Origin: Sphingobacteriaceae bacterium
Lineage (GTDB): Bacteria > Bacteroidota > Bacteroidia > B-17B0 > Aurantibacillaceae
NCBI GenBank assembly: GCA_002319075.1
Contig: NVQB01000001.1
Coordinates: 2,852,001 to 2,916,000, forward strand
Length of the DNA: 64,000 nt
Reading direction: 5' to 3'
Position numbers and translations under genes: made by a program. Positions within the stretch are counted from its first letter, which is position 1; each line of letters begins with the position of its first letter. This document shows positions 48,871 to 58,102 of this stretch, piece after piece. Below the pieces are notes generated by a model, which made no database searches, was not told where the DNA came from, and worked only from the letters and a program-made list of their open reading frames with translations.

Positions 48871-51063
48871 ATGCGTTTTAAACCCATAAAGCAATTCAAT
48901 GCCATCCTCACACAGGAATACTTTGAACCTACTATCAGCTGGGCTTTCAGAGTGGTACTTGCTTTAAACGTGCCTTTGATTGTACTCTCTCTGTGGAAAG
49001 GTTTTTCGTTCGAAGTAACATGGGCAGCCTTTGGTGGCTATATGATTTCACTCACAGACTACAGAGGGCTGCATTATAAAAAAATTGTGATCCAAAGTCT
49101 TGAAACTGTTTTAATTTTTATAAGTGCCATGCTGGGCATGTACGTGGCAGATTCTATGGTGCTATCGCTGCTCTGTATGTTTTTTGTTGGCATGTTTGCG
49201 GCTTTGGTTCGCAATTGGAGCGATTATGGTTCGAGCATAGGAGTAGCAGTTGGTTTTTTCTTTTTATTCGGACTCTCCTTTCCTGCACCGTTCCAGGAGT
49301 CATTACTTTCGGGCTTGTATCTTCTGGCAGGAGCAGGCTGGGCGATCATCATTACTTTGTTTTCTTTCCCCTTTCGTCCTTTAAATCCGGTAAAGCGTTC
49401 AGTTGCTAAGATCTGGAAGGCCAATACAGAATTGCTGGATGTCATCATTGAAGAACTGTCTTCGAAAGAAAATTTAGCGGGAGAAATTACCAAGAAGGAA
49501 ATGGCTGTTAGATCTTCCATCAACGAGTCGATGGATCTTTTCGCAAGACGTGAGAAAGAAGCAAAAGTTAAGGCACAGCATTACGATATTATGATTGATC
49601 TGCGCCGGAGTTCTGCTTTATACAGTGCCGCGCTCATTTCACTTTATGAAGAACTAAGCAGCATTCATAAATCTACGTTCCAAAACATTAAAGACAGTAC
49701 TTTGTATAAAACGCTTTCGGCTTTTGCGCAGGCGAGCGCGCGGCTTTCAATTCTAATATATACTTCTCGTCCCGAAGATCTTACGCTTGCTAAAGTGCGC
49801 ATTAAAAGGTGCGAAATTGCTATTGAACTTTTTAAGGAAGCCATTAAAGATTTAAATACAAATCCTGCTGAACAAAGAGCTCTTAAGCACTTTACCGACA
49901 CACTCGACAAAGCGTACAACGATATGCAGGTTACTATTGCATTGATTGAAACGAAATTAAATTTAAAGAAAAGTGACTACTTCGAAAGTTATAAATTGAG
50001 TTACACCAATTTTATGGCAGGGGTAGATAAATGGATCTTTCTTGATTTTTTAAAGAGCCTTGTCAATTTTAATTCCGATCAGTTTAAATACGCTTTGAGG
50101 GTTTCAATCGGACTTTGTATTGCCGTTTTCATTTTTAAATTCTTTCACATCGATCATGGATATTGGATTGCGCTGACGATGATTATAGTGATTCAGCCGT
50201 ATTACGGAGCCACACGGAAAAAAGGTACCGAAAGAATTATTGGGACACTGGCTGGCGTGATTTTAGGGGGACTTATCATGCTTCTTCCTCTACCACATGA
50301 AGCTTTCGTTATTTTGCTGGTTTTTGTTTCTTTTTTTGTTGCTTATTTTTTACGTAACAATTATAAAGTAGGTGTGTTTTTTGTAACAATCATGATGGTA
50401 GTGCTGATGCAAATTTCTCAGCGCGGATCTTTGGAACTTATTGGGTGGAGAATTATCTCTACTTTGGTGGGCGCTGTTATGGCGGTGATTGCTGGATATG
50501 CTTTCTGGCCTGTGTGGGAGAAGAAACGTTTCCCGCCATTAATGAAAGACGCTTTGCTTCAAACAAAAAATTATTTACGCCAGGTAATCCGTTATTATCA
50601 AAAAGACTTGGCTGCGAATGAGAATTGGTTTCTTAACCGGCGTCTCGCTGAAGCTGCCAACAATCTTGTTTTTTCGAGTGTGGAAAGAATGTATGAAGAG
50701 CCAAAGCACATACAAGATAAAGTAGATATTTATTTTGCAATGGTAGGTGTAAATGTGCGTATGACCAGGGAGATCACATCAGTGGCACTTTCCATTCACG
50801 AAACTAAAAATCTTATTACTGTAAAATCTTTGTCAGAATTTTACGGGGAAACAGAAAAAATAATAGATCAAATCATTACTTATTTTTCCGGGGAAGAAAT
50901 TCAAGTGCAACATCTCGATTTTGCGGCATTGAAAAAAAGTCTCGATTCGCATGAATTTCAATCTACCGAGCAGCTTCAATTTATAAAAATGGAATTTGAA
51001 AAAATTATTTTTGAGTTAGAAGCCATCGCAAAACTACTGCCCGTTAGAAAAGCGATTTCTTAA
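48871..51063 (+). CDS. FUSC-family inner membrane protein (YccS/YhfK-like)
   Basis: The 730-residue protein has two blocks of membrane helices (about residues 25-165 and 405-545), each followed by a long soluble helical domain. This is the FUSC/aromatic-acid-exporter layout. The second block contains WIALTMIIVIQPYYGATRKKG and RIIGTLAGVILGGL, the conserved FUSC core. Family members export aromatic acids or other small molecules, and the substrate here is unknown. Its stop overlaps the convergent phytochrome stop in TTAA (4 bases). Transcription has no separate terminator visible. Confidence 0.88.
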   Translation: MRFKPIKQFNAILTQEYFEPTISWAFRVVLALNVPLIVLSLWKGFSFEVTWAAFGGYMISLTDYRGLHYKKIVIQSLETVLIFISAMLGMYVADSMVLSLLCMFFVGMFAALVRNWSDYGSSIGVAVGFFFLFGLSFPAPFQESLLSGLYLLAGAGWAIIITLFSFPFRPLNPVKRSVAKIWKANTELLDVIIEELSSKENLAGEITKKEMAVRSSINESMDLFARREKEAKVKAQHYDIMIDLRRSSALYSAALISLYEELSSIHKSTFQNIKDSTLYKTLSAFAQASARLSILIYTSRPEDLTLAKVRIKRCEIAIELFKEAIKDLNTNPAEQRALKHFTDTLDKAYNDMQVTIALIETKLNLKKSDYFESYKLSYTNFMAGVDKWIFLDFLKSLVNFNSDQFKYALRVSIGLCIAVFIFKFFHIDHGYWIALTMIIVIQPYYGATRKKGTERIIGTLAGVILGGLIMLLPLPHEAFVILLVFVSFFVAYFLRNNYKVGVFFVTIMMVVLMQISQRGSLELIGWRIISTLVGAVMAVIAGYAFWPVWEKKRFPPLMKDALLQTKNYLRQVIRYYQKDLAANENWFLNRRLAEAANNLVFSSVERMYEEPKHIQDKVDIYFAMVGVNVRMTREITSVALSIHETKNLITVKSLSEFYGETEKIIDQIITYFSGEEIQVQHLDFAALKKSLDSHEFQSTEQLQFIKMEFEKIIFELEAIAKLLPVRKAIS

Positions 51064-53330
51064 ACCACAGGAAAGTAAAGGTTAAAAACAGAACCCACGT
51101 TCACTTCGCCTTCAGCAGTAATGTGACCACTGTGATTTTCCATTATTTTTTTACAGATCGCGAGACCAATGCCGGTACCCGTGTATTTTTTCGCACTATG
51201 AAGGCGTTTAAACACGTTAAAAATTGTTTGCGAATGATCGTTGTTAAATCCAATTCCATTGTCGCTGAAACTTACTTTATAATAGGTTCTACCCATCTCA
51301 AGACCTTGTATGTCTGATTCTACCTGTTCCTGGGTGGAAGTAATTTTTATATGCGGCCGAATGTCTGCTTTTGAAAACTTTAAAGAATTACGTATTAAAT
51401 TCAGAAAAAGCTGGTGCAGTTGAAAGGAGATACCATTCACTTCGGGTAAGTCAGAAAACTCTACTTCCGCTGTTATTTCTTGTAATTCTTCTTTCAATTC
51501 ATCCTGAACATTTTTTAGTAAACCATTAAGATCTACTTTAGAGAAAGCATCACTGGTGTCTCTTAGCTGCGAATAAGACATCAGATCATTTAAGAGTGTT
51601 TGCATGCGGCTGGCAGCATCATTCATTTTTTGCACAGACCCCATGGCAAATTCAGAAAGATTATGATTGTCGTCTTCAAGTATTTTGGAAGCGAAAACCT
51701 GAATTTTTCTAAGAGGCTCTTTTAAATCATGGTTACTGATCCAGTTAATATTTTCAAGTTCAGAGTTTGCTTTCTGAAGCTTTTCACTGAGCTCACGGTA
51801 TTTGGTTTCTTCCCTGGTAAGATAAAGAACATAAGTTTGTTTTTGAAGGGCATGCGCAAATTTGGAAGCAGCAACTAATTCAGGTTCTTCCCACTCCTCA
51901 CTTTGATGTTTTGTTCTTTCCTTCCACAATTCAAAAGATTTACGGGGCGATAATCCTTTTTCATTTTTAATAATAGCCTTGTTTGGATCACCCGCCCAGT
52001 TTACGGTTTTCTGAACCTCTTGCCTGAACCAAATAATACTATCATTTATAGGATTACCAAGGGCGTGAAATAAAACTCCTGAGGCGCATTCACGTATTTT
52101 TTCAGCACGCGGATATTCTTCAATTAATTTAGACGTAATATAAACTCCCGTTTCATGCTTAGCGGCGATCCATTTTACAAGGCTACTTATCTCTTTTTCC
52201 GCAGGAATCTGTCCAAAAGAGCGGAGCATTCCTTCACTAATCAAAACCGCTCCCGAAGAATTTGTAATCTTAAGCAGGTCCTCATTCATCACGTGATGAA
52301 AATTACCAGAAGATACCTCCGGTATATTTCGCATAAGGTTCTCAAGACTATTTGCAATAGATTGAGAAAGGTCAAATTCTTCAGCGACTTCACGCACGTT
52401 TATTTGCGAAGTCAGAAAGTGACCTTGCAGTTGCGCCGCAAGGCGGGTATAATGCGGTAAATTTTTTGGCGAATAATGATGACAGGCAATCAAACCCCAC
52501 AATTTTTTATTGTGCATAAGCGAAATGGTCAGGGTAGCTCCAACACCAATGTTATGAAGGTATTCTATATGGATAGGAGAAACGCTTCGCAACACGGAAT
52601 TACTCAGGTCAAGATTTTTATCTTTAACGTCATCAATCGTAAAAATCGGAACCGGCGTGTAATTTACATCCACAATAATACGCATGAGATTACGCATGTA
52701 AAGTTCTCGTGCCTGCACAGGAATATCGGTATGCGGATAATGTAATCCAAAAAAAGACTCTAGGTCGTCGCGTTTACTTTCTGCAAATACTTCGCCGTTA
52801 TATTCTTTATCGAAACGATAAACCATTACACGGTCGTAGCCTGTAATACTTCTTGTTTCCTCGGCAATAATTTTACAAAGATCCTGCAAGGTTACCGATC
52901 TTTCGAGATGTGATACAAAACGTTTTGTCTGACTGTAAAGATCAGGCAGGGTTAAACTTCCATCTGGAAATGGTTCGAGATCAAGAATAAAATTTTCGCC
53001 ACTTTTATGAATCAAAGTGTTGTAGGGAATGCCATTCCAATTAAAAACATGGGGTTTAGAGGCGTCAGACAGAGGATCTGCAACATAATCTTTAAGTTTT
53101 TTTCCTTCATCGTCTCCGAAAACTTCTTCAAAAGATTTTCCTAAAAGATCAGTGTGTTTTATTCCCGTGAAATCGAAGCTGTTTGCGGTACAAAAATCTA
53201 TTTGGTAATTACTTTGTTTTACCGCTAATAAAAAACCATGTGGCTGTATGCTCCCTGGAATATGTATTGGCTCACTTTCGCAGTTTTGAAGGTTAACGAG
53301 ATCGCGGTTAACAATATCTTTTATCTTCAT
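51060..53330 (-). CDS. bphP: Bacteriophytochrome sensor histidine kinase
   Basis: The 756-residue photoreceptor binds biliverdin and switches between red and far-red forms. The chromophore cysteine is Cys17 in NCESEPIHIPGSIQPHG, as in DrBphP. The PAS domain spans about 20-125. The GAF domain (about 140-310) has TDIPVQAREL with Asp202 and IACHHYSP. The PHY domain (about 325-500) shows the tongue pieces WFRQEV and SPRKSFELW. The output is HisKA with His534 in SNHDLKEPL, then a HATPase with TGTGIGLAICKK. No PAS lies between PHY and kinase. The heme oxygenase stop is 7 bases upstream, so chromophore synthesis and receptor are co-expressed. No receiver is fused. Confidence 0.95.
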   Translation of the reverse strand: MKIKDIVNRDLVNLQNCESEPIHIPGSIQPHGFLLAVKQSNYQIDFCTANSFDFTGIKHTDLLGKSFEEVFGDDEGKKLKDYVADPLSDASKPHVFNWNGIPYNTLIHKSGENFILDLEPFPDGSLTLPDLYSQTKRFVSHLERSVTLQDLCKIIAEETRSITGYDRVMVYRFDKEYNGEVFAESKRDDLESFFGLHYPHTDIPVQARELYMRNLMRIIVDVNYTPVPIFTIDDVKDKNLDLSNSVLRSVSPIHIEYLHNIGVGATLTISLMHNKKLWGLIACHHYSPKNLPHYTRLAAQLQGHFLTSQINVREVAEEFDLSQSIANSLENLMRNIPEVSSGNFHHVMNEDLLKITNSSGAVLISEGMLRSFGQIPAEKEISSLVKWIAAKHETGVYITSKLIEEYPRAEKIRECASGVLFHALGNPINDSIIWFRQEVQKTVNWAGDPNKAIIKNEKGLSPRKSFELWKERTKHQSEEWEEPELVAASKFAHALQKQTYVLYLTREETKYRELSEKLQKANSELENINWISNHDLKEPLRKIQVFASKILEDDNHNLSEFAMGSVQKMNDAASRMQTLLNDLMSYSQLRDTSDAFSKVDLNGLLKNVQDELKEELQEITAEVEFSDLPEVNGISFQLHQLFLNLIRNSLKFSKADIRPHIKITSTQEQVESDIQGLEMGRTYYKVSFSDNGIGFNNDHSQTIFNVFKRLHSAKKYTGTGIGLAICKKIMENHSGHITAEGEVNVGSVFNLYFPVV

Positions 53331-53337
53331 ATAAATG

Positions 53338-53949
53338 TTAAGCGTTTAAAAGATCAAATAAGAGTTTAAATGTGTCGTCTGCCCCCTGAATTATTTCTTT
53401 TTGGTTCGAGGTCTTAAGCGCATAGTTGCAAAATTGCTCCATAAAAGCAGACCATAATTTACCGGTTTCTGCACCGTAACCATTAAAGTACGAAGCTCCT
53501 GATTCAGCCGTTAAACCTAAAGTGGAGCTGATGTTTTTATAGATAAATTTCCCACCTAAAGTAGATCCTTCTAACACATAAAATGCACCCATTAAATAAG
53601 AAGTAGAACGGGTCGCAACAAATCTGTTGAAGAGAGATTGTTTTTCCGGAACTTTTACGCCCAGAAATTTCAAATCTTTTTCGAGTAAGTTTGTTTTAAT
53701 GCGTTGATCAAGGTCTGAAAAATGCGGGTTGAGGATAGGAAAAATTTTTTTTTCAAAAGAAACCATTGCCAGGTACATTTTTTCAAGGTAGAGAGCATAG
53801 TCGCCAACAAGCAAGGTTTCACTCACAATAACTTTTGAAAGAGACGTCTCTTCTAATTTTTTATGAGCGGGTGATGTAACGGAGCGCAGATCCTTCAGAA
53901 AAGTATCCTTTTCGGTTGCCAGCGGCGTTTGCGTTGCATGAGGTTGCAT
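53338..53949 (-). CDS. Biliverdin-producing heme oxygenase (BphO-like)
   Basis: The 203-residue protein is an all-helical heme oxygenase that cleaves heme to biliverdin, CO and iron. The proximal ligand is His29 in TSPAHKKLEE. The conserved distal region is YLMGAFYVLEGSTLGGKFI, with the flexible glycine pair. The size matches bacterial HmuO/BphO enzymes. It lies 1 base downstream of the response regulator and 7 bases upstream of bphP, so it supplies the chromophore within the same operon. Confidence 0.93.
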   Translation of the reverse strand: MQPHATQTPLATEKDTFLKDLRSVTSPAHKKLEETSLSKVIVSETLLVGDYALYLEKMYLAMVSFEKKIFPILNPHFSDLDQRIKTNLLEKDLKFLGVKVPEKQSLFNRFVATRSTSYLMGAFYVLEGSTLGGKFIYKNISSTLGLTAESGASYFNGYGAETGKLWSAFMEQFCNYALKTSNQKEIIQGADDTFKLLFDLLNA

Positions 53950-53950
53950 A

Positions 53951-54385
53951 TCAGGAAGCTTTTAGAAAGAAATTTTCTTTGGCAGGCCTTTCATAAGTTT
54001 TCCAATCTATGCGAAGACAAGTTGCAAGTAGTTTTTTTAGATCCGAATATTTTCTGGGCTTATTTACATATAAACTAGCTCCATAGTGGTATGTGAGATC
54101 AATGTCTTCTTTGCTGGAAGATGTAGACAAAATAATTACTGGGAATCTTTTTAATTCATCGTGCGACTTTATTTCTTTGAGTGTTTCCCGGCCATCTTTG
54201 CCAGGCATATTCAAATCTAAAAAAATAACATTTGGGGTAGGTGGAGGGTTATTCAGAGAGTCGATGAGTTCCTGCCCGTCTTCCACTGCTTTTAAATTAT
54301 AATTATTATCACCTACCTCTTTCAGCGCTTGTTCAAAGATCATGATATCGTCTGCATCATCATCGGTATAAAAAATAGTACTCAT
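53951..54385 (-). CDS. Single-domain response regulator of the phytochrome operon
   Basis: The 144-residue protein is a stand-alone receiver, with acidic residues Asp8-Asp10, phosphoacceptor Asp57 in VIFLDLNMPG, and conserved Thr/Ser and Lys residues in ILSTSSSKEDI and NKPRKY. No output domain follows, as in Rcp1-type partners of phytochrome kinases. It opens the operon of three genes (receiver, heme oxygenase, BphP), separated by 1 and 7 bases. It probably takes phosphate from His534 of the kinase. The downstream target is not in the window. Confidence 0.92.
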   Translation of the reverse strand: MSTIFYTDDDADDIMIFEQALKEVGDNNYNLKAVEDGQELIDSLNNPPPTPNVIFLDLNMPGKDGRETLKEIKSHDELKRFPVIILSTSSSKEDIDLTYHYGASLYVNKPRKYSDLKKLLATCLRIDWKTYERPAKENFFLKAS

Positions 54386-54608: not shown

Positions 54609-55658
54609 CTATTCAATTCTAAGATGAAAATTTTTCGTGTAGTTTTCAGAAGTCACCACGCACTGGTATAAACCAGTAGTTAACAGGCGGTTAGTATTGA
54701 TTTTAACGAGACTTGATTCTTTATCCGAATTTTGCTGTTCTGAATGTACAACTTTTCCAAAACGGTCTATGATAGAAATGTCAACCCTTCTGGGACTTCC
54801 CAAATCGATGGTAAACTCACCATTATTAGGATTCGGAAATAATTTAGAAACATCTTCTTGTTTTTTATTCATGGAAACAACAATCACTTTACTGTAAGAA
54901 ACGGTATTGTCATAATCAACTTGTTTTAAACGGTAGTAGTTATCTCCTTCCTGTGGAAAAAGATCATCGGTTTGATAAGTAAGTTTAGTGGAACTATTTC
55001 CGCCAATAGCTTTTGAATCTATTTTTCCAAGGCTTGTAAACAATGAACCATCTGTACTTCTTTCAATCTCAAAAAAACTATTATTCTTTTCACTTGCAGT
55101 AGCCCAATTAAATACAACCTGATTGTCTTGAAGTTGCCCCTCGAAGGTCAAAAGTTTTATTGAAAGTGGACTTGCCGTTATAGAGATGTTATCGATGATC
55201 ATTCCTGAATTAATAGTTAAACCACTGCCAGGTGAAAAACTTATAGTGTGAAGAGTGCTTGTGGCTACGAATACAAATCCGCTTGAAACCCAACCAAAGG
55301 ATGTATTTGTGCGGGTCACAGTACTTGAAAATGTGCCACCACTTACAACAACATCAACATTTGTAACACTCGGACTTCCGGCTACTGCCGTGGTGCGGCG
55401 GCTCGCATCGAAGGTTACGTAATAAGCGTCACCTATGGTTAAAGAAGACATTGACTGGCAAAGTCCTGCTGAAGCATCAACTTCTGAAACCGTGTTAAAA
55501 AGGTTAGATCCTCCATAAAATACTTCAGTCCCAGTTTCGGCGCTGCAGTTCCAATAAAGAGTGCCCCAGAAAAAAGTTCCATTGTTAATCATTTGTGCCT
55601 TTGTAATGGTTGTCAGAAAAGCTGATAGAATTACGAGGAAGAATAATTTTGTTTTCAT
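54609..55658 (-). CDS. T9SS-secreted protein with jelly-roll domain (copy 1)
   Basis: The 349-residue protein has a signal peptide ending near Ala21-Gln22, a beta jelly-roll-like N-terminal half (about 23-165) with NNGTFFWGTLYWNCS and VDASAGLCQSM, and then a C-terminal section SIKLLTFEGQLQDNQVVFNWATASEKNNSFFEIERS split here by family as a fibronectin-like linker. The last 80 residues are a T9SS type A sorting domain, DVSKLFPNPNNGEFTIDLG. It is a close paralogue of the gene upstream. The jelly roll resembles a carbohydrate-binding module, but no ligand is known. Exposed at the cell surface after T9SS export. Confidence 0.88.
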   Translation of the reverse strand: MKTKLFFLVILSAFLTTITKAQMINNGTFFWGTLYWNCSAETGTEVFYGGSNLFNTVSEVDASAGLCQSMSSLTIGDAYYVTFDASRRTTAVAGSPSVTNVDVVVSGGTFSSTVTRTNTSFGWVSSGFVFVATSTLHTISFSPGSGLTINSGMIIDNISITASPLSIKLLTFEGQLQDNQVVFNWATASEKNNSFFEIERSTDGSLFTSLGKIDSKAIGGNSSTKLTYQTDDLFPQEGDNYYRLKQVDYDNTVSYSKVIVVSMNKKQEDVSKLFPNPNNGEFTIDLGSPRRVDISIIDRFGKVVHSEQQNSDKESSLVKINTNRLLTTGLYQCVVTSENYTKNFHLRIE

Positions 55659-55776
55659 GTTACTTAAACTACGAGGTAAAAGTAAAATGAAGTCAATGGA
55701 TTTATTTTACATAACCCAGTCCTTTCTTACATATGTAAGGGGTTTATACTGATTACAGGTGTAAAACACGCAGGTT

Positions 55777-56817
55777 TTAGCGGATGATTAAGGGGAAGTT
55801 ATGGGCTGTAGAGTGTGTGGACACTAGGCAATGGTAATATCCAGGTGCTAATTTGTCCTGAAGATCTATTTTAACATTTTCTGCCTCTGAGGAGATGAAT
55901 TGCGTTTCAGAATGCACTAGCTCCTGTAGGGTAGTGTAGATGGATATACTGATTTTTCCGCTGATTTTAGCTGCGATGCTAAACGCGCCTGCATTTGGAT
56001 TGGGGTAAAGAGCCTTCTCTTTTGTCAAAGGTGCGCCAATGCTTATAATTTTACCGTTGGAAAAAGCCCCGTCAAAATCTACCTGCTTTAAACGGTAATA
56101 ACTAACACCGGTAAGCGGATTAAGATCTGTACTTGTGTAATGAAGCTTGGTAGCGCTGTTGCCATTACTGGCTTTTGTAGGAATTTGCTGCACATCAGAA
56201 AAGTCGCTACCGTTGGGGCTTTTTTCAATTATAAAATGAGAGTTGTTTTTTTCGGAGGCGGTAGACCAGGTAAAATCAACTTGTCCTTCTGAATAATAAG
56301 CATCAAAATGCAACAGTTCAATAGGTAAAGGACTGAAAGTAACAACAAAATTGTCCATGATCATACCGCATGTACTTCCTCCAAAACCAGAGCCGGCCGA
56401 AAAAGTAAGGGTGTGTGTAGCAGAGTTAGCTGTGAACAAAAAATAGTCACTGGTAAATCCAAAAGTGGTATTAGTGCGCGTAATAGTTGTTGAAAGAGCG
56501 CCACCACTAACATTTACGTCAATATTTGTAACCGAAGGACTGGGACAGCCTCCTGTTCTGCGGGAAGAACTAAAAGAAACAAGATAGGCGTTTCCTATAG
56601 TGAGGCCCGTTATAGTCTGACATAGTCCCGCCCCAGCATCCACTTCCACCACAGCATTAGAAGAGGAGCCACCATAGGTCGATTCTGTATTTACCTCTAC
56701 ACCGCATGCCCAGCCACTTGTGCCGGATGAAAAATCGCCGTTTGAAAGCACTTGCGAAAAACAGGTGTTTGAAAACAGACAACTTAGAACTGATAATAAA
56801 AGAAATTTTAGGTACAT
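55777..56817 (-). CDS. T9SS-secreted protein with jelly-roll domain (copy 2)
   Basis: The 346-residue paralogue of the previous gene starts at ATG 56817 (MYLKFLLLSVLSCLFSN signal peptide). An upstream extension to 57111 would run through the hppD terminator and coding region and is rejected. The N-terminal jelly roll (NGDFSSGTSGWACG, VDAGAGLCQTITG, SSRRTGG) matches copy 1 position by position, as do the PIELLHFDA linker and the T9SS sorting domain (ALYPNPNAGAFSIAA). A TATCTTTA box (56836-56843, minus) lies 18 bases before the ATG. Tandem duplication with divergence is evident. Confidence 0.88.
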   Translation of the reverse strand: MYLKFLLLSVLSCLFSNTCFSQVLSNGDFSSGTSGWACGVEVNTESTYGGSSSNAVVEVDAGAGLCQTITGLTIGNAYLVSFSSSRRTGGCPSPSVTNIDVNVSGGALSTTITRTNTTFGFTSDYFLFTANSATHTLTFSAGSGFGGSTCGMIMDNFVVTFSPLPIELLHFDAYYSEGQVDFTWSTASEKNNSHFIIEKSPNGSDFSDVQQIPTKASNGNSATKLHYTSTDLNPLTGVSYYRLKQVDFDGAFSNGKIISIGAPLTKEKALYPNPNAGAFSIAAKISGKISISIYTTLQELVHSETQFISSEAENVKIDLQDKLAPGYYHCLVSTHSTAHNFPLIIR

Positions 56818-56890
56818 GGACGTTTGGGTGAGCTGTAAAGATAGACATTTCCAGGAGGAATATCCGGAGAGAGTCAGGAAATAGAGCATA

Positions 56891-56920
56891 AAAAAAGGCA
56901 AACCTGAAGTTTGCCTTTTA
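56891..56920 (-). terminator. Intrinsic terminator of hppD
   Basis: A perfect 11-bp stem (AAAAGGCAAAC at 56893-56903 with GTTTGCCTTTT at 56909-56919) and 5-base loop lies 19 bases after the hppD stop on the minus strand. The A-rich flank gives the T-run in the RNA. It should keep hppD separate from the T9SS genes. Confidence 0.88.
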
Positions 56921-56938
56921 ATGTATTGAAAATGTAAG

Positions 56939-58102
56939 TTACAAAGTCCCTCTGAGAGCCTGTTCTCTTTCGATGGATTCGAATAAAGCTTTAAAGTTTC
57001 CTGCTCCAAACCCTTTAGCACCCATGCGTTGAATGATCTCGTAAAATAAAGTAGGACGATCCTCCACTGGTTTAGTGAAAATCTGAAGCAAATAGCCTTC
57101 TTCATCAGCATCTACCAGGATAGACAATTTTTGAAGTTCTTTAATATCTTCCTTCATAATATCCATATGTACACCTAAACGTCTTGGAATATCATCGTAG
57201 TATGCTTGCGGTGGCGGTGGTAAAAATTCAACACCACGCGCTTTTAATTCATGCACAGTTTTAATAATGTCGTCGGTAGCAAGCGCTAAATGCTGCACTC
57301 CCGGACCTTCATAAAAATCGATGTATTCTTCGATTTGTGATTTTTTCTTTCCTTCGGCAGGTTCGTTGATTGGAAATTTAATACGTCCGTTACCATTGCT
57401 CATTACTTTGCTCATAAGGGCAGAGTATTCGGTTGTAATTTGTTTGTCGTCGAAGCTAAGGAAGTTTACAAACCCCATTACTTTTTCATACCATTCAACT
57501 GTAGCATTCATTTGATTCCAGCCCACATTGCCAACCATGTGATCAATAAATTTTAATCCTACCGGCGTTGGGTTGTAATCACTTTTCCACTCTTTGTATC
57601 CTGGTAAAAATGCTCCCTTATAATTTTTACGTTCCACGAACATGTGTACGGTTTCGCCGTAAGTATAAATGCCAGAACGTACAACTTCGCCATGTTCATC
57701 TGTTTCTACAGTAGGCTCCATAAATGGTCTTGCACCACGCTTTACGGTTTCTTCAAACGATTTGCGTGCATCTTCAACCCATAACGCTGTTACTTTAACG
57801 CCATCACCGTGTTTTTTTACATGTTCTCCGATAGGAGATTCACTGTTTAACGCGGTAGTAAATACCAAACGAATTTTATCTTGTTTTAACACGTAAGAAG
57901 CTCGGTCTTTTAAACCCGTTTCCAATCCAGCATAAGCGTGTGATTGATATCCAAAAGCAGTTTTGTAATAGTGAGCTGCTTGTTTAGCATTTCCCACATA
58001 AAACTCTACGTAATCTGTTCCTAAAAGCGGAAGAAAATCCTGAGCGCCTTCAAATATTTTTTCTAAACCGTATTCTACGTTTTTTATTTCTCTAGTTGCC
58101 AT
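56939..58102 (-). CDS. hppD: 4-Hydroxyphenylpyruvate dioxygenase
   Basis: HPPD converts 4-hydroxyphenylpyruvate to homogentisate in tyrosine catabolism, using Fe(II) and O2. The 387-residue length and two vicinal-oxygen-chelate halves are typical. Iron ligands are in the C-terminal half: His in LKFIDHMVGNV, His in PGVQHLALATDDI, and Glu in EEGYLLQIFTKP. The C-terminal gate helix GAGNFKALFESIEREQ is intact. No homogentisate dioxygenase or fumarylacetoacetase gene is adjacent, so the rest of the pathway is elsewhere. The leader is about 135 bases and carries two inverted repeats. Confidence 0.95.
   Translation of the reverse strand: MATREIKNVEYGLEKIFEGAQDFLPLLGTDYVEFYVGNAKQAAHYYKTAFGYQSHAYAGLETGLKDRASYVLKQDKIRLVFTTALNSESPIGEHVKKHGDGVKVTALWVEDARKSFEETVKRGARPFMEPTVETDEHGEVVRSGIYTYGETVHMFVERKNYKGAFLPGYKEWKSDYNPTPVGLKFIDHMVGNVGWNQMNATVEWYEKVMGFVNFLSFDDKQITTEYSALMSKVMSNGNGRIKFPINEPAEGKKKSQIEEYIDFYEGPGVQHLALATDDIIKTVHELKARGVEFLPPPPQAYYDDIPRRLGVHMDIMKEDIKELQKLSILVDADEEGYLLQIFTKPVEDRPTLFYEIIQRMGAKGFGAGNFKALFESIEREQALRGTL

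Follow-up and report, generated by a model that had tools for sequence, protein, structure and literature searches.

A probable red/far-red bacteriophytochrome operon in a Sphingobacteriaceae bacterium

Results

A compact receiver, heme oxygenase and phytochrome kinase operon

A 64,000-nucleotide stretch of DNA from Sphingobacteriaceae bacterium (GenBank assembly GCA_002319075.1, contig NVQB01000001.1, positions 2,852,001 to 2,916,000; hereafter the window) carries three adjacent open reading frames (ORFs) on its minus strand, at window positions 51060-54385, that encode a stand-alone receiver, then a heme oxygenase (HO), then a phytochrome kinase (BphP). We conclude with high confidence that these genes are a canonical bacteriophytochrome two-component operon, bphR-bphO-bphP, predicted to work as a red/far-red sensor unit. 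This conclusion draws on the gene order, the domains and invariant catalytic residues of the proteins, the presence of a single copy in the genome and the joint divergence of the three proteins across related bacteria. The features of the locus are as follows.

53951-54385, minus strand: stand-alone receiver, Rcp1/BphR-like response regulator, 144 aa (Response_reg, 65.5 bits against a cut-off of 30.2; no output domain)
53338-53949, minus strand: heme oxygenase BphO, 203 aa (Heme_oxygenase PF01126, 61.7 bits against a cut-off of 23)
51060-53330, minus strand: bacteriophytochrome histidine kinase BphP, PAS-GAF-PHY-DHp-CA, 756 aa (Pfam domains and PDB relatives)
54215-54217, minus strand: receiver Asp57 codon, phospho-acceptor (invariant in 29/29 receivers)
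53863-53865, minus strand: HO His29 codon, proximal His (invariant in 39/39)
53280-53282, minus strand: BphP Cys17 codon, predicted biliverdin attachment site (Cys in 42/42 relatives)
52725-52727, minus strand: BphP Asp202 codon, TDIP motif of the GAF domain (Asp in 42/42 relatives)
51933-52031, minus strand: PHY tongue, BphP residues 434-466, WFRQEV ... SPRKSF (Arg463 and Ser465 in 42/42)
51729-51731, minus strand: BphP His534 codon, predicted phospho-acceptor, NHDLKEPLRKI (His534, Asp535, Glu538 and Arg541 in 42/42)

The receiver and HO genes are separated by 1 base (53950), and the HO and BphP genes by 7 bases (53331-53337). An earlier, sequence-only reading of this stretch had proposed a bacteriophytochrome operon of three same-strand genes with gaps of these lengths. 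Its ORFs and coordinates are borne out, the residues that it named are all in place (Cys17 in NCESEP, Asp202 in TDIP, WFRQEV at 434, SPRKSF at 461 and His29 of HO), its description of a receiver without an output domain agrees with Pfam, which finds Response_reg only, and for the operon as a whole the sequence, whole-genome and comparative evidence agree.

By analogy with characterized members of the family, BphP would bind a chromophore, undergo a photocycle and exchange phosphate with the receiver, and the three genes would be co-transcribed. In the mechanism that we propose, HO would open heme to biliverdin, which would attach to Cys17 of BphP and sit in the GAF pocket. Red and far-red light would then switch BphP between its Pr and Pfr states, and the PHY tongue would refold and reset the histidine-kinase module. 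The kinase activity of this module, and probably also its phosphatase activity, would set the phosphorylation of Asp57, and the receiver would go on to act, through direct protein contact, on a target whose gene lies outside the operon.

Gene order and co-divergence in related bacteria

Searching species genomes returned 134 related loci, of which 80 were kept. In 41 of these the match covers BphP at full length (best-segment identity 41-54%), while the other 39 (L073-L111) match the kinase part only and were left out of the gene-order counts. Together with the locus of the genus-mate G007 (L003), the full-length matches make up the set of 42 relatives used throughout; because 24 of them are Dyadobacter by record title, the gene-order counts lean towards that genus and the rows are dependent. 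Gene order was assigned by BLAST at 1e-4, with HO sought within 700 bases and the receiver within 1500 bases of BphP. Gap lengths in the relatives depend on mechanically picked start codons.

The sequence-only reading had suggested looking for conserved order in related genomes, and such order is present. Receiver, HO and BphP follow one another on one strand in 27/42 loci, including that of G007, which has a second receiver downstream, and HO lies directly upstream of BphP in 37/42. The full order also occurs in records from Flavipsychrobacter, Runella, Flavobacterium, Flavisolibacter, Aquiflexum, Cognataquiflexum and Ferruginibacter. Two of the 42 loci (L064 and L065) have the receiver and BphP with HO behind them on the opposite strand, convergent with BphP and overlapping its end.

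In the 30 rows that hold all three genes (window included), pairwise protein distances correlate at r 0.959 for BphP and HO, 0.961 for BphP and the receiver and 0.933 for HO and the receiver, and none of 999 permutations gave values as high. The three operon proteins diverge together, with shared species history contributing to the correlation.

Sequence features of the phytochrome, receiver and heme oxygenase

BphP scores well above the Pfam cut-offs for PHY (139.2 bits, cut-off 27), PAS_2 (69.5, 21.4), GAF (46.6, 22.4) and HATPase_c (67.5, 26.4), and the best phmmer matches in the PDB are the bacteriophytochromes 8uph (residues 13-749) and 9ys3 (residues 14-749). Cys17, Tyr171, Asp202, His254, Tyr257, His285, Arg463 and Ser465 are invariant in the 42 relatives, and His284 is conserved in 41 of them. 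Residue 253, beside His254, is Ile in the window protein and Ile (33/42) or Met (9/42) in the relatives, never Cys; we take this to be the position of the Cys in phytobilin-binding phytochromes. BphP therefore has the marks of a bacteriophytochrome, namely the PAS-GAF-PHY core, an N-terminal Cys without a Cys at residue 253, the Asp of the DIP motif and PRxSF in the tongue. The kinase half is equally constant, with His534, Asp535, Glu538, Arg541, Asn644, Asn648 and Asp690 in all 42 relatives, giving the phospho-acceptor His, acidic H+1 residue, N-box and ATPase domain of a HisKA-type kinase. All of these invariant residues, like those of the receiver and HO given below, are present in the window operon proteins, which bear no sign of decay.

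One difference within the family lies six residues before Asp202, where residue 196 is Leu in the window protein and 18 relatives and Gln in all 24 Dyadobacter. This difference may be relevant to the ground state (Pr or Pfr). The phytochrome of Pseudomonas aeruginosa has Gln at the presumed equivalent place, from which we draw no conclusion.

The best solved relatives of the receiver are RcpB (1k66), Rcp1 (1i3c) and RcpA (1k68), and RcpA and RcpB are named as phytochrome response regulators. The 29 receivers that precede BphP in the relatives all have Asp9, Asp10, Asp13, Asp57, Thr88, Ser89 and Lys109. The acidic pocket, Asp57, Thr88 and Lys109, with no output domain found by Pfam, are those of a single-domain response regulator. 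The receiver is likely the first phosphotransfer partner of the neighboring BphP, for which the co-divergence of the two (r 0.961) gives indirect support. The partner of the phytochrome is described as AlgB in Pseudomonas and BphR in Deinococcus (PMC6932827), and the window operon resembles the BphR kind.

The only solved relatives of HO at an E-value of 0.1 are HemO (1j77) and pa-HO (1sk7), and His29 aligns with residue 23 of 1j77. All 39 related heme oxygenases have His29, Gly128 and Gly132, and 38 have Ser129; the last three lie in the distal-helix stretch LEGSTLGG (residues 126-133). Family profile, proximal His and Gly-rich distal helix together mark the protein as a heme oxygenase. Both solved relatives come from bacteria that use heme oxygenases for iron uptake, and HO could by the same token serve iron or heme use, leaving the phytochrome with little bound chromophore. 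We regard this as most improbable given that HO is the sole PF01126 match of the genome (other heme-degrading families were not searched), that it lies so close to both neighbors, that it stays upstream of BphP in most relatives, and that receivers are the only other conserved genes found around the operon.

Genome context

The genome comprises 5.65 Mb in two contigs, the window lying on the larger one, and has a listed completeness of 99.98%; the operon BphP is its one PHY match. Photo_RC and PsaA_PsaB have no match in this genome, and both were detected in a Synechococcus control. Bac_rhodopsin likewise has no match in the genome; the control in that search was also without a match, and across 119 genomes of the class (own included) 23 were positive, one genus-mate among them, so the search is able to detect rhodopsins. 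The absence of Photo_RC, PsaA_PsaB and rhodopsin matches accords with the statement in the sequence-only reading that the other genes give no sign of photosynthesis. That reading had also called the operon self-sufficient. This description fits the supply of chromophore and the likely first phosphotransfer partner, and it does not extend to an output, since none was found in or beside the operon.

Related kinases and receivers in the same genome

Queries included, the receiver has 75 matches in its own genome and the kinase 61. Among the 61 kinase matches, the 19 closest (above 95 bits, BphP included) were compared with 34 stand-alone receivers, defined as those of the 75 matches with an open frame below 200 aa; three receivers with internal stops (5412814, 4373090 and 312575) were removed and two with one stop (3288095 and 149669) were kept. 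Fifteen of the 19 kinases have a stand-alone receiver no more than 5 kb away. In 2000 rotations the mean was 1.1 and the highest value 14, the latter probably from a near-zero shift that kept true pairs together. The phytochrome is therefore one input among many. The region G000:C1 ~3,185,000-3,314,600 is rich in relatives of the phytochrome pair, both histidine kinases and stand-alone receivers.

We built a kinase-domain tree from 15 relatives, the window and related kinases of the same genome; 18 local loci were fetched and 17 gave a kinase, the kinase match of L129 carrying a stop. A branch with 100/99 support separates the 16 phytochrome kinase domains from the 17 local kinases. We had considered whether the BphP kinase was swapped in from a local paralogue, and rejected this on the grouping of its kinase domain with those of other phytochromes. 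The local kinases nearest to the phytochrome kinases are those of L121, L123 and L124 (99/96).

Several observations weigh against our assignment. HisKA scores 25.2 bits in BphP, just below the Pfam cut-off of 26.9 (E-value 1.8e-5), so that the HisKA-type assignment rests on the motif and the ATPase domain. BphP reaches 330.7 bits against the cut-off of 1040 for the NCBIfam equivalog NF041576 (bacphytchrmBphP), which places it only in the wider bacteriophytochrome family, and HO matches no NCBIfam model. In 10/42 loci HO and BphP occur without a nearby receiver, and rechecking both strands of these ten revealed no receiver-like frame in the fetched DNA. BphP lacks an adjacent HO in 3/42 loci, one of which has a downstream receiver. 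Finally, in a receiver tree of 14 relatives, the window, the receiver of the family genome G083 and the second receiver of G007, the operon receivers form one group in 35% of 200 bootstrap trees, and two local receivers (L121_12 and L123_1) join the 16 phytochrome-linked receivers in a group with 98/96 support. Because L121 and L123 are nearest for kinases and receivers alike, each kinase seems to have been inherited together with its receiver. The second stand-alone receiver of G007, which follows BphP (L120:7085-7468), groups with the local receivers of L122 and L127 (95/82), apart from those of the operons.

These relationships raise the possibility that the phytochrome signals to a common pool of stand-alone receivers, its neighbor being one of several partners. 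We find this doubtful, though it has some weight: the genome is rich in related kinases and receivers, most of the closest kinases lie near stand-alone receivers, the H-D-x-x-E-P-x-R motif of BphP recurs in 14 of the 17 related kinases, and the ten loci without a nearby receiver are what such a pool would allow. Conversely, BphP and the receiver co-diverge (r 0.961 over 30 rows) as a specific pair would, shared species history adding to this value, and the phytochrome kinases form a clade distinct from the local ones. A more speculative arrangement, which we consider unlikely, would make the operon the light input of a many-branched phosphorelay, in which 19 related kinases, mostly with one DHp motif, would converge on a common target; two species of the genus would have gained the operon independently and plugged it into this relay.

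The canonical receiver-HO-BphP operon remains our preferred interpretation, the target presumably being encoded elsewhere. We looked for a conserved output gene among ORFs of at least 100 aa in 16 loci (the window, G007, G083 and 13 others), with flanks of about 6 kb or less and clustering at an E-value of 1e-10 and 50% coverage, settings at which short or fast-evolving neighbors would escape. Besides the operon genes, only further receivers and one antisense group, consisting of three ORFs inside BphP, recur in at least three loci, which leaves no candidate for the target among the genes covered.

Kinase and phosphatase signatures

The DHp motif of BphP, HDLKEPLRKI, places Asp at H+1, Glu at H+4 and Arg at H+7. 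According to one study, an acidic residue at H+1 goes with kinase activity, and the phosphatase activity of the Deinococcus radiodurans phytochrome DrBphP is linked to H+4 Glu and H+7 Arg; DrBphP itself has His at H+1 and no kinase activity (PMC8292422). The study also describes H+4 Glu and H+7 Arg as losing conservation in HisKA proteins with an acidic H+1. Since all three residues occur together in BphP and in 42/42 relatives, this family departs from that trend. In the same study, Agp1 given H+4 Glu gained no net phosphatase activity (PMC8292422), so the motif by itself is no proof of such activity.

On these residues, a bifunctional kinase/phosphatase appears the likeliest role for BphP. 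The invariance of the two DrBphP phosphatase residues would also suit a protein that is mainly a light-controlled phosphatase, as DrBphP is, with another kinase phosphorylating the receiver. We judge this improbable, as the H+1 Asp and the N-box residues Asn644 and Asn648, each present in 42/42, make up a kinase-competent pattern unlike the H+1 His of DrBphP. For the bifunctional enzyme that we favor, the sign of the light effect is not predictable.

Distribution and history of the operon

PHY matches occur in 5/87 genomes of the window's family and 2/40 of its genus (own included). Because the whole-genome kinase search scored 26 candidates per genome, absence of a full-length BphP was judged by the PHY search instead. 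The other four PHY-positive family genomes all have HO upstream of BphP. In G007 and G083 a receiver precedes the pair, and in G086 receiver and HO share one frame upstream of BphP. This frame is uninterrupted over 335 aa (L118:3742-4749), and since BphP is broken into two ORFs on that contig, the fusion may be a sequence error. The 3.6 kb contig of G073 yielded no receiver.

In a phytochrome tree of 24 of the 42 relatives and the window, the window BphP is nearest to those of Flavipsychrobacter (54% identity) and Dyadobacter, its exact placement being weakly supported (93/87). It is nearest to Runella in the kinase-domain tree (98/90), as is the receiver in the receiver tree (83/67). The BphP of the genus-mate G007 is 45% identical to it and falls in another supported clade, with Flavobacterium sp. 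28A and Cytophaga sp. FL35 (100/99). Presence in so few family genomes, with the genus-mate copy in a different clade, suggests transfer or loss. Independent gain in the genus is the simplest reading of these data, and differential loss would be the less simple alternative. One phylogenetic study describes frequent lateral transfer of phytochromes, with Bacteroidetes basal in its trees of the photosensory part (PMC4422448).

Discussion

Phytochromes are well known in non-photosynthetic bacteria, and the window operon is real but ordinary, of a kind already published. The cyanobacterial Cph1 (2vea)/Rcp1 pair likewise joins a phytochrome kinase to a small single-domain receiver. Cph1 carries its Cys in the GAF domain; compared with cyanobacterial phytochromes, the window BphP has an N-terminal Cys at the biliverdin position and none at residue 253. 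D. radiodurans combines the same three components in one operon, bphO-bphP-bphR (PMC8363230; PMC8292422), in the order HO-BphP-receiver rather than receiver-HO-BphP, and its DrBphP has His at H+1 where the window BphP has Asp together with H+4 Glu and H+7 Arg. In the Deinococcus survey, 13 BphPs occurred in 12 species among 27 genomes examined, and nine of 13 bph operons kept bphO-bphP-bphR (PMC8363230). Presence among related species is patchy there too.

In the myxobacteria Stigmatella and Chondromyces, non-photosynthetic hosts of a different phylum, BphP, a heme oxygenase and a response regulator are likewise encoded in one operon (PMC6126659), and a four-gene version is described for M. 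macrosporus (PMC11832031). A change of His289 to Thr (or Gly) is ascribed mainly to myxobacterial BphPs (PMC6126659), while the window BphP keeps both His residues (284 and 285) of IACHHYS, the equivalence of either to His289 being presumed.

Within the Bacteroidota, the operons of Dyadobacter, Runella, Flavipsychrobacter and others share the architecture of the window operon, and 27/42 loci its order. Our literature search found no experimental work on Bacteroidota receiver-HO-BphP operons, and no paper on this gene order in the phylum, which says little as the search covers subscription journals poorly. The Owenweeksia genome paper records a bacteriophytochrome gene and proposes regulation by light, with no operon described (PMC3570807), and in both this paper and PMC4422448 the Bacteroidota phytochromes are handled by sequence alone. 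Little here would surprise a specialist. What the window operon adds is a complete, single-copy phytochrome gene set in Bacteroidota, whose DHp residues lend themselves to testing the H+1/H+4/H+7 rule for kinase against phosphatase activity (PMC8292422). With only one such set to delete, the bacterium would also be a simple system for asking by knock-out what a non-phototroph learns from light.

Flanking sequences

Two further genes border the operon.

48871-51063, plus strand: FUSC/YccS-type membrane protein gene, convergent with BphP (Pfam FUSC family)
54609-55658, minus strand: gene for a protein with a type IX secretion system sorting tail, 223 bases upstream of the operon (DUF642 match just below cut-off)

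Within the window, promoter and terminator signals are about as frequent as chance predicts, with 12 sigma-70-like sites against 10.3 expected and 2 terminators against 2.6, and the pattern TTTG-N(18-26)-TAnnTTTG, which we take to be a Bacteroidota-type promoter, has 5 matches against 6.95 expected, none near the operon. The 3' end of BphP and the convergent FUSC/YccS-like gene overlap tail to tail by 4 bases (51060-51063), a palindromic TTAA that supplies the TAA stop of both genes, and a terminator has no space between them. Upstream of the operon, two consecutive minus-strand ORFs within 54609-57111 are alike by eye. The call for the second of them, 55777-57111, overlaps its upstream neighbor at 56939-58102, and its true start is probably further in.

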